Source of the DNA: Arcobacteraceae bacterium
GTDB lineage: Bacteria > Campylobacterota > Campylobacteria > Campylobacterales > Arcobacteraceae
Direction of reading: 5' to 3'
Length of the DNA: 58,439 nt
Assembly (NCBI GenBank): GCA_028687375.1
Contig: JAQUAG010000010.1
Location: 1-58,439, forward strand
Of this stretch, positions 8,641-58,439 are shown piece after piece (the first letter of the stretch is position 1; each line of letters starts with the position of its first letter). A program made the position numbers and the translations under genes. The notes beneath the pieces were generated by a model. That model searched no databases and was not told the origin of the DNA. It was given only the letters and a program-made list of their open reading frames with translations.

Positions 8641-9024
8641 TTATTTCTCACATCCACATTTACAAGATGTTGTTCCACTATCTAGTAAATCTTTGTAATT
8701 TGTTTTATCCAATTTAATGAAATCGTCATTTGAAAGTTTAAAAAATATCTCATCAATTGTATTAGATTTGTCTGTTGCCTTATACACTTCAATATTATTT
8801 TCCATACAACTACTATAAACACCTTCACCCATATGGTAAAAAATTGTGCTTGTTACACCATATTGTGTAAGGAAACTAGCTATTGCTAAGCCATTTCCTT
8901 TTTCTTCATTTTCTATAACTGTAAAATTCCCTTCTGCTTCATCAAGAAGTGCAAAAAATGGAACATTTCCATAAAGATCAGAAATTGTTGTTGAAGTTTG
9001 TGTTGAAATAGGTATTGCTAACAT
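8641..9024 (-). CDS. NifX/NifB-C-terminal-type FeMo-cofactor-binding domain protein
   Basis: A 127-residue protein of the dinitrogenase iron-molybdenum cofactor biosynthesis family (the NifX/NafY/VnfX/NifB C-terminal fold). Family features are LYGNVPFFALLD near the start, VIENEEKGNGLAIASFL, and the central block YGVTSTIFYHMGEGVYSSCMEN. The tail CKCGCEK is Cys-rich and could bind metal. Such proteins hold NifB-co or FeMo-co during transfer to NifEN or NifDK. It is the first gene of a two-gene operon divergent from nifE. The mRNA leader (9025-9224) carries a switch-like structure, and the ribosome-binding site AAAAAGG lies 7 bases before the ATG. Confidence 0.87.
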   Translation of the reverse strand: MLAIPISTQTSTTISDLYGNVPFFALLDEAEGNFTVIENEEKGNGLAIASFLTQYGVTSTIFYHMGEGVYSSCMENNIEVYKATDKSNTIDEIFFKLSNDDFIKLDKTNYKDLLDSGTTSCKCGCEK

Positions 9025-9224
9025 TTTAAATCCTTTTTAAATGTCCCATAAAAGGTGCCTAAAAAAATCAATATTTTTTTAGGGAACCTTAAAAAGGGAC
9101 CTCTTGTTCTTTGTCTTCTTTTTACGATATAGCAAAGCTACATCTAAAGAAGCAAACCCTAAAGTGAGAAACAAGTTTCTCTTTCTTCGCTAAAATGTCC
9201 CATTTAAAAAAGGACTTCTTATTA
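9025..9224 (-). promoter_or_regulatory. Structured mRNA leader, copy A of a three-member family (candidate riboswitch)
   Basis: In minus-strand sense the elements come in this order. Stem P1 is GAGAAA, loop CTTG, TTTCTC (9181-9166). A conserved TTTAGGGTTTG follows, then P2 CTTCTTT (9152-9146) with AAAGAAG (9121-9115). P2 encloses P3 TGTAGC/GCTATA (9142-9137/9133-9128). Next is a conserved ACAAAGAACA, then GTCCC (9100-9096) pairing with GGGAC (9047-9043). An alternative helix pairs CCTTTTTAA (9097-9089) with TTAAAAAGG (9040-9032), which holds the Shine-Dalgarno bases. The two helices exclude each other. A copy-specific 11-bp hairpin (9058-9083) sits inside the GTCCC/GGGAC loop. Copies B (28291-28419) and C (58300-58439) show compensatory changes in P1, P2 and P3. 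The ligand is unknown. Confidence 0.72.
9197..9215 (-). repeat. Extra GTCC/GGGAC hairpin module at the 5' end of leader A
   Basis: Minus-strand GTCC and GGGAC flank TTTTTTAAAT and are followed by ATTTTA. This repeats the 3' switching module of the leader family just upstream of P1. It lies at the predicted transcript start and is probably a remnant of a tandem copy. Confidence 0.5.
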
Positions 9225-9232
9225 CATTTACT

Positions 9233-9250
9233 ATTCAATAACTATTCCGT
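9233..9250 (-). promoter_or_regulatory. Sigma-54 promoter of the NifX-like/Nfu operon
   Basis: On the minus strand ACGGAATAGTTATTGAATA has the -24 GG (9248-9247) and a -12 GA (9236-9235) separated by 10 bases. GA instead of GC is also seen in front of nifB. The start of transcription would be near 9223, at the beginning of leader A. It is divergent from the nifE promoter at 9270-9285. Confidence 0.6.
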
Positions 9251-9269
9251 ACTGTCAAAATTTTGATTT

Positions 9270-9285
9270 TGGAACAATTATTGCA
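9270..9285 (+). promoter_or_regulatory. Sigma-54 promoter of nifE
   Basis: TGGAACAATTATTGCA carries -24 GG (9271-9272) and -12 GC (9283-9284) with the canonical 10-base spacing. It lies 25-40 bases upstream of the nifE start, so the leader is only about 15 bases. No TGT-N10-ACA NifA site was found in the shared intergenic region. Confidence 0.82.
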
Positions 9286-28170: not shown

Positions 28171-28172
28171 GT

Positions 28173-28284
28173 TTAGATACAACAAGATTTTTTATTCACT
28201 AAGGCTTCACGATGGGTACCCCACAATTAAAAATTGTGACCCTTTCGTTGCAGAATCGTTCATAAAAAACCTTGTTGTATCTAA
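28173..28284 (+). repeat. Long inverted repeat with nested hairpin between the nifV unit and leader B
   Basis: TTAGATACAACAAG (28173-28186) is the exact complement of 28271-28284. After one mismatch the pairing continues with TTTTTTAT and ATAAAAAA, so the arms are about 23 bp. Inside is a second hairpin: GGGT and ACCC enclose CACAATT, AAA, AATTGTG. As RNA it would be one long rod with a branched tip. It could insulate or terminate the upstream transcript, or be a MITE-like insertion. A short frame reading through it (28160-28348) is not a credible gene. Confidence 0.75.
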
Positions 28285-28290
28285 GAATAC

Positions 28291-28419
28291 GGTGAAAGGA
28301 AACTCGTTTCCTTCTTTAGGATTTGCTACTTTAGGCTTGACTTGTTAAGCCGTAAAAAGTAGATAAAGAACAATAGGTCCCTTTTAAAATGGGACATTTT
28401 AAAAGGAGAATATAAAAAG
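28291..28419 (+). promoter_or_regulatory. Structured mRNA leader, copy B of the three-member family (candidate riboswitch)
   Basis: P1 is AAGGAAA (28296-28302), loop CTCG, TTTCCTT (28307-28313). A conserved TTTAGGATTTG follows. P2 is CTACTTT (28326-28332) with AAAGTAG (28356-28362), enclosing P3 GGCTT (28334-28338)/AAGCC (28347-28351) with loop GACTTGTT. Then come ATAAAGAACAATAG and the switch module. GTCCC (28377-28381) can pair with GGGAC (28391-28395). Alternatively CCTTTTAAAA (28380-28389) pairs with TTTTAAAAGG (28397-28406), which contains the Shine-Dalgarno bases. The second helix is 10 bp and perfect. Compared with copy C, P1, P2 and P3 all differ by paired changes. The gene start is 28420. 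Confidence 0.75.
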
Positions 28420-28620
28420 ATGGAAATAGATGAAAAAGAACTAAAAAAAGAGTACGCAGGATACAAAAGAAAAGTTACAGAGATAGCTGGTGAGATTCAC
28501 GATATTGTTGAAGATAGTATCTGGACTGATTATGTGAAATTAGCAGGCTTAAGCGTTAAAATAGAAGAAGCTATGATACCTGTAAATGAAATGAAACAAA
28601 AATACGATTTCCTAAAATAA
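28420..28620 (+). CDS. CCE_0567-type nif-associated small metalloprotein
   Basis: A 66-residue, highly charged, mostly helical protein (MEIDEKELKKEYAGYKRKVT...). It matches the small Rop-like helical hairpin family found in nif clusters beside NifX and often annotated CCE_0567 family metalloprotein. Its role in nitrogen fixation is not established. It is the first gene after leader B and is followed after 19 bases by the BFD-like gene. Confidence 0.78.
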   Translation: MEIDEKELKKEYAGYKRKVTEIAGEIHDIVEDSIWTDYVKLAGLSVKIEEAMIPVNEMKQKYDFLK

Positions 28621-58002: not shown

Positions 58003-58299
58003 TTAGTATTTAAGTCTTACGATTCCGTTTGGTTTAGCAATTTTCATTTGGCATGAAAGTCTAGAATTTGGTGTACAAGTTCCAGAACAAATCTCTTTTA
58101 AAACTTTTACTTCTTTATCTGTTTTAGGAGATAAAAATTCCATACCTTGCTCAACTTCAACTACACAAGTACCACACTCACCATCTCTACAACCAAATGG
58201 AAGTGCTGAACCACTTGCTTCAACGATATCTTGAATTGTACTACCTTCTTTAACATTAATTGCTAAAAAATCATTAATTATTTCTACTCTTGTTGTCAT
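58003..58299 (-). CDS. [2Fe-2S] plant-type ferredoxin, nif-linked
   Basis: A 98-residue soluble ferredoxin with cluster ligands in GCRDGECGTC (C-x5-C-x2-C) and a distal Cys in RLSCQM. The C-terminus INGIVRLKY-like strand (NGIVRLKY) closes the beta-grasp fold. Similar ferredoxins in diazotrophs donate electrons to nitrogenase reductase or protect nitrogenase under oxygen stress. The gene is monocistronic, with leader C upstream and a terminator downstream. Sharing a leader with the NifX-like and CCE_0567-type genes supports a nitrogen-fixation role. AAGGAG lies 11 bases before the ATG. Confidence 0.88.
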   Translation of the reverse strand: MTTRVEIINDFLAINVKEGSTIQDIVEASGSALPFGCRDGECGTCVVEVEQGMEFLSPKTDKEVKVLKEICSGTCTPNSRLSCQMKIAKPNGIVRLKY

Positions 58300-58439
58300 A
58301 TCTTTTTCTCCTTAAAATTTGTCCCAAATTTGAAGGGACCTATTGTTCTTTGTCTTCTTTTTTCGGTTTAACAAGTCAAACCTAAAGAAGCAAACCCTAA
58401 AGAGAGAAACGAGTTTCTCTTACTTCATACCTAAAATTT
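58300..58439 (-). promoter_or_regulatory. Structured mRNA leader, copy C of the three-member family (runs to window edge)
   Basis: In minus-strand sense P1 is AGAGAAA, loop CTCG, TTTCTCT (58420-58403). A conserved TTTAGGGTTTG follows. P2 is CTTCTTT (58390-58384)/AAAGAAG (58360-58354), with P3 GGTTT (58382-58378)/AAACC (58369-58365) inside. ACAAAGAACAATAG is followed by GTCCC (58339-58335) and GGGAC (58325-58321). The alternative helix pairs CCTTCAAATTT (58336-58326) with AAATTTTAAGG (58320-58310), with one mismatch, and holds the ribosome-binding site. The promoter is outside the window. Confidence 0.72.

Follow-up and report, generated by a model that had tools for sequence, protein, structure and literature searches.

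The leader of a small gene in an Arcobacteraceae bacterium raises the question whether two hairpins that cannot form together control access of ribosomes to the gene behind them. The window (the whole stretch of DNA analysed, 58,439 nucleotides of contig JAQUAG010000010.1) carries this leader, designated leader B, with the following features:

28291..28408, + strand: leader B, complete element (P1, joiner, P2, P3/P4 and Shine-Dalgarno sequence, SD), matched by covariance model R1
28296..28313, + strand: P1 hairpin AAAGGAA-CTCG-TTTCCTT; two-sided changes at 7/7 pairs among 104 relatives
28314..28319, + strand: joiner CTTTAG, near invariant in alignments
28326..28362, + strand: two-part P2 hairpin, outer stem 28326-28332/28356-28362, inner stem 28334-28340/28345-28351
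28377..28395, + strand: P3, GTCCC (28377-28381) with GGGAC (28391-28395), SD left free
28380..28406, + strand: P4, CCTTTTAAAAT (28380-28390) with ATTTTAAAAGG (28396-28406), SD paired
28404..28408, + strand: Shine-Dalgarno AGGAG, read from the sequence; ATG at 28420
28420..28620, + strand: gene for a 66-aa Rop-like protein (PF05082, Pfam E 1.9e-07) behind leader B, in a nif neighbourhood

The element thus spans about 118 nt, with the P1 hairpin, the CTTTAG joiner and the two-part P2 followed by P3/P4 at its 3′ end. Leader B is the top R1 match of its own genome (135 bits, E 9.6e-32), a score to be read knowing that R1 was built partly from leader B. A sequence-only reading of the locus had stated that GTCCC/GGGAC and a second helix exclude each other, the latter pairing the SD over 10 perfect bp. 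Both statements were confirmed: bases 28380-28381 are used by P3 as well as P4, so the helices are mutually exclusive, and P4 is slightly longer than described, with 11 bp or, counting G28391-C28395, 12 bp. Between the preceding ORF and leader B lies a near-perfect inverted repeat of about 112 nt (28172-28287, arms TTAGATACAACAAG..TTTTTTAT) with a predicted energy of -38 kcal/mol. Its full arm is absent from every other fetched locus, and it is possibly a terminator or a single-copy mobile remnant.

The same choice of helices had been proposed for two further copies in the window, located as follows:

9030..9187, - strand: copy A (BLAST within the window and R1), with a hairpin of about 37 nt inserted between the P3 arms
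8641-9024, - strand: Nitro_FeMo-Co protein gene, downstream of copy A
9185..9277, - strand: partial tandem copy just upstream of copy A (R1 E 3.0e-4)
58308..58425, - strand: copy C (R1 E 1.1e-29; BLAST within the window)
58003-58299, - strand: 2Fe-2S ferredoxin gene (Fer2), downstream of copy C

Both copies are real elements, copy A departing from the common layout by its inserted hairpin. The folding suggested in the sequence-only reading gave the P4 form as the minimum free energy structure of leader B (-12.1 kcal/mol, z -2.96) and the P3 form for copy C (-8.3 kcal/mol). Past the end of the window two further tandem copies adjoin copy C, and the ferredoxin gene is preceded by three tandem copies (window 58308-58439; locus L011 6309-6807), two of which are separated by an N run in the assembly. 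About 27 copies were counted in the genome as a whole, besides partial tandem ones. AT-rich hairpins of about 40 nt (GGTTCCC..AAAAA..TTTTT..) were seen inside the P3 loop of copy A (9030-9187, minus strand), and similar ones inside P2 of other copies (L020 near 3113; L319); they are perhaps a second tiny repeat.

Covariance model R1 was derived from 15 copies with only P1 and P2 specified as paired, and since P3 and P4 were left unpaired, the relatives fetched with it allow an unbiased test of these two helices. In 104 aligned relatives, compared with 500 shuffles, P1 and P2 showed 98.1% paired cells and 587 two-sided changes, beyond all shuffles; in P2, 11 of 14 pairs carry two-sided changes, while three U-A pairs practically never vary. 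P4 reached 90.0% paired cells and 122 two-sided changes, with 9 of 11 pairs compensated, a level attained by none of the 500 shuffles. P3 is near-invariant (93.8% paired cells) with just 6 two-sided changes, a number reached in 12/500 shuffles; its covariation score was equalled in 1/500 shuffles, column pair 121/140 gave a Fisher p of 0.04, and complementarity is maintained at the three P3 pairs lying outside P4. Support for P3 thus comes mainly from conservation of complementary bases and less from covariation, and this conservation could partly have another cause. With regard to the possibility that homologues keep only one of the helices, both were present in 80 of the 104 copies, against a mean of 3.35 and a maximum of 7 in shuffles. 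The conservation first noticed in three copies therefore extends to many diverged ones.

The covariation scan of the 104 relatives revealed no additional helix, and core (P1/P2) and platform (P3/P4) have neither shared bases nor linking covariation. A pseudoknot or a core-platform pairing was accordingly rejected. Binding of CsrA seems unlikely: GGA occurs in the P4 loop and in the SD, yet the GGA at the joiner is not conserved. The mixture of a conserved joiner, invariant U-A pairs and covarying stems resembles an aptamer and would suit a classical riboswitch, in which P1/P2 bind a metabolite or ion and P3/P4 serve as the expression platform. Against this reading, the strand exchange by which aptamers usually couple to their platform is not visible, given that bases and covariation are not shared, although a tertiary link is conceivable.

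The two 3′ helices are computed to be of comparable stability, and their balance moves towards P4 in the cold. The median P4-P3 energy was -1.99 kcal/mol at 10 °C, -0.55 at 37 °C and +0.12 at 50 °C, and P4 was the more stable helix in 123 of 152 copies at 10 °C, in 80 at 37 °C and in 74 at 50 °C. Roughly half of the copies are computed to favour P3 and half P4, so the default state is not uniform. This temperature trend, together with the pairing of a long AU-rich against a short GC-rich helix, would be in keeping with an RNA thermometer, with P4 shutting the SD in the cold and opening on warming and P3 as the alternative. We regard this as improbable, because the computed shift is just about 1.5 kcal/mol over 27 degrees, copies vary in their default state and the targets display no heat or cold theme.

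In nearly all of 185 R1 matches a same-strand start codon follows about 3-12 nt past the end of the element; most of the exceptions are leading units in tandem arrays, opposite-strand matches that arise because P4 is palindromic, or weak matches. As R1 includes the SD region, placement was checked without this bias by the core-only model R2, which was built from alignment A5 and is blind to the SD. With R2 the own genome yielded no further copies outside leaders. In a complete genome of the family (G056), 18 of 21 R2 cores are followed in sense by an ORF that has an SD-like motif, two rows being listed with a start at an upstream TTG that may be off, and two of the three remaining cores are upstream units of a tandem array. 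Of 168 copies, 90 have the stop codon of a long same-strand frame no more than 20 nt from P1, with the mode at P1 itself, whereas the remaining copies begin further from a gene end. As the start of the element often coincides with the preceding stop codon, reading-frame analysis suggests that many of them sit between genes of an operon.

Which genes are placed behind the element bears directly on the riboswitch reading. Pfam scans of 20 own-genome targets linked nine to nitrogen fixation or its control (Rop-like, three Nitro_FeMo-Co, Fer2, NifT, NifW, PII and NifU), which together with the existence of tandem copies speaks for a riboswitch. The other own-genome targets include LepA, LuxS, an EngA-type GTPase, PdxH and a homoserine kinase-like protein. 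Across the family the element precedes a wide variety of genes (nif genes, PII, transaldolase, thrC, mnmG, dnaK and others), and those in other genomes presumably comprise IspH-like, HIT, transaldolase, ThrC, DnaK-like, S2-like (rpsB) and urease-like (ureC) proteins. No single pathway is shared among them, and a set that includes hit, transaldolase, thrC, mnmG, dnaK, rpsB and ureC is too diverse for one metabolite. In addition, gene set and copy number turn over quickly between species, and the core is also found ahead of 16S rRNA and in repeats that are not leaders. Diverse targets, empty sites in relatives and the uncoupled core all argue against a single-ligand riboswitch, which we consider unlikely.

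R1 matches were present in 82 of 104 genomes of the family Arcobacteraceae, with 1 to 30 copies per matching genome and a range of 0 to about 30 across the family. A few further families of Campylobacterales gave core-only matches. A pattern scan of 84,980 named genomes placed the core mostly in Arcobacter-type records, and scattered single matches elsewhere may be due to chance. At the gathering score Rfam gave no matches in the window or in 20 element-carrying loci, the best sub-threshold match being caiA with 19.2 versus 55.5 bits; assignment to a known RNA family was therefore rejected. Similar DNA was not found in plasmids or phages, so carriage on such replicons is unsupported.

Comparison of orthologous junctions indicated that the element is gained, long kept, duplicated and lost. 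When one gene is followed from genus to genus, its leaders closely match (identity 0.92-0.97 for hit and prpF), while those of different genes have a mean identity of 0.66; hence single copies were inherited and kept. Several species of one genus carry the element between serB and tal, where other species of that genus show a tight empty junction and one species a remnant. At the hit junction filled, tandem, truncated and empty states all occur among relatives. In other relatives (L295, L296, L318) a different short repeat, ATTCACTATTCACTATTCATTTATTTTTC, occupies the hit junction, which indicates that this site tolerates insertions.

Multiple copies, with sites that are cleanly filled in some close relatives and empty in others, are what an interspersed repeat presents. 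It is accordingly possible, if not the reading we prefer, that a mobile small repeat of the Correia/NEMIS, ERIC or BOX kind lands between genes and that pairing of the SD is a by-product, tolerated because the repeat brings its own stop codon and SD. Copy numbers from 0 to 30, tandem and truncated copies, and dispersed non-leader copies in two distant Campylobacterales genomes (G158 and G145, where just 1/20 and 1/9 cores are leader-like by core-only R2) fit such a repeat. Compensatory changes that hold P1, P2 and P4 and leaders inherited across genera do not, as decaying repeats would show neither. Inspection of the serB-tal and hit junctions by eye showed no clear target duplication, with suggestive letters only at serB-tal, and no flanking inverted repeats. 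Derivation from REP or IS200/IS605 elements by a Y1 transposase was rejected, since PF01797 is absent from the own genome and from several other high-copy genomes (genomes covered: G000, G044, G058, G033, G145, G158). Spreading and regulation are in any case compatible rather than exclusive.

Outside the family the P1-P2 core was found without P3/P4. In one other genus of the order it directly adjoins mature 16S rRNA on the upstream side and is also found in the spacer towards 23S rRNA (L232, L244, L236, L228, L229), and single cores precede infA, a NifU gene, a cytochrome-like gene and phage-like genes. An rRNA boxA seems an unlikely explanation: the core resembles boxA in sequence (TTTGSTWCTTTA), but the bases concerned form covarying pairs, and the same rRNA leader shows a boxA-like sequence elsewhere. 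The rRNA positions, together with the intercistronic placement of copies, are compatible with a module for RNA processing or stability in which P1/P2 would be a cleavage or protection site separating cistrons. Such a module leaves the covarying SD pairing unexplained, and we judge it an unlikely account of the element. An antisense core just after 23S rRNA was observed in the genus with rRNA-associated cores and in one other genome. At a phage-like gene of another family (L226 near 1501-1606) the P2 3′ strand reads TTAAAAGGAG, which contains an SD, so that P2 itself would pair the SD. A small genome (1.76 Mb) carries tandem cores directly upstream of an infA-like gene (L233 near 1400-1600), and several related genomes have one core copy each.

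The conserved SD pairing and its competition with P3 make translational gating the best explanation. We think it probable, well short of certain, that the element is a self-contained RNA unit, dispersed as leaders or between cistrons, by which translation of the adjoining downstream gene is controlled. Its start frequently coincides with the preceding stop codon, and its structured core of P1 and P2 would be followed by a 3′ end supplying its own SD. Access to this SD would be gated by the choice between P3, which leaves it free, and P4, which pairs it. P3 is completed first during RNA synthesis and should permit initiation; refolding to P4, of comparable stability, would then shut initiation. 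As to the on/off platform originally proposed, the strong structural selection on the SD helix stands (none of 500 shuffles for P4), whereas the switching itself is a step further: we infer that the P3/P4 balance is actually switched in cells. The trigger would be a general one rather than a single metabolite; candidates are temperature, the kinetics of folding, a global RNA-binding protein or ribosomes arriving from the gene before. Taken together, the data point to a spreading translational control element rather than a classical single-metabolite riboswitch. More tentatively, this element may insert between genes, bringing its own stop codon, SD and two-state gate and placing the same valve before dozens of unrelated genes, so as to rewire operons genus by genus.

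If the element works in this way, operons throughout a whole bacterial family can gain or lose a heritable, dispersed valve for translation, and dozens of unrelated genes may share one valve type. This would allow quick formation of regulons without transcription factors. The many natural replicates and empty sites would make the effect of one RNA switch measurable on unrelated genes, and the host group of this uncatalogued RNA family includes nitrogen fixers.

RNA thermometers such as ROSE and fourU pair the SD within an AU-rich helix, as does the element, which differs from them by a second, GC-rich competing helix, a separate conserved core and a weak computed temperature dependence. With translational riboswitches it has in common two exclusive helices, one over the SD, near the start codon; it is distinguished by the lack of visible core-platform coupling, very diverse targets, repeat-like dispersal and a frequent position inside operons. 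The element represents an RNA family absent from Rfam. The unnamed motifs of Arcobacter sp. L and HRC-4, most of them described as genus-confined in Stav et al. 2019 (PMC6429828), are likewise structured, intergenic and from an Arcobacter genome, and the element may be identical with one of them. Small interspersed repeats such as Correia/NEMIS, ERIC, BOX and RUP (PMC3049150, PMC2229807; Correia elements, PMC2649163) are similar in being about 100 nt long, multicopy, structured and located in operons, with modular or tandem copies in the case of BOX. In contrast to these repeats, and with no clear target duplication or flanking inverted repeats seen at its junctions, the element keeps a fixed sense orientation ahead of the SD, brings its own stop codon and SD, and carries a covarying SD switch.
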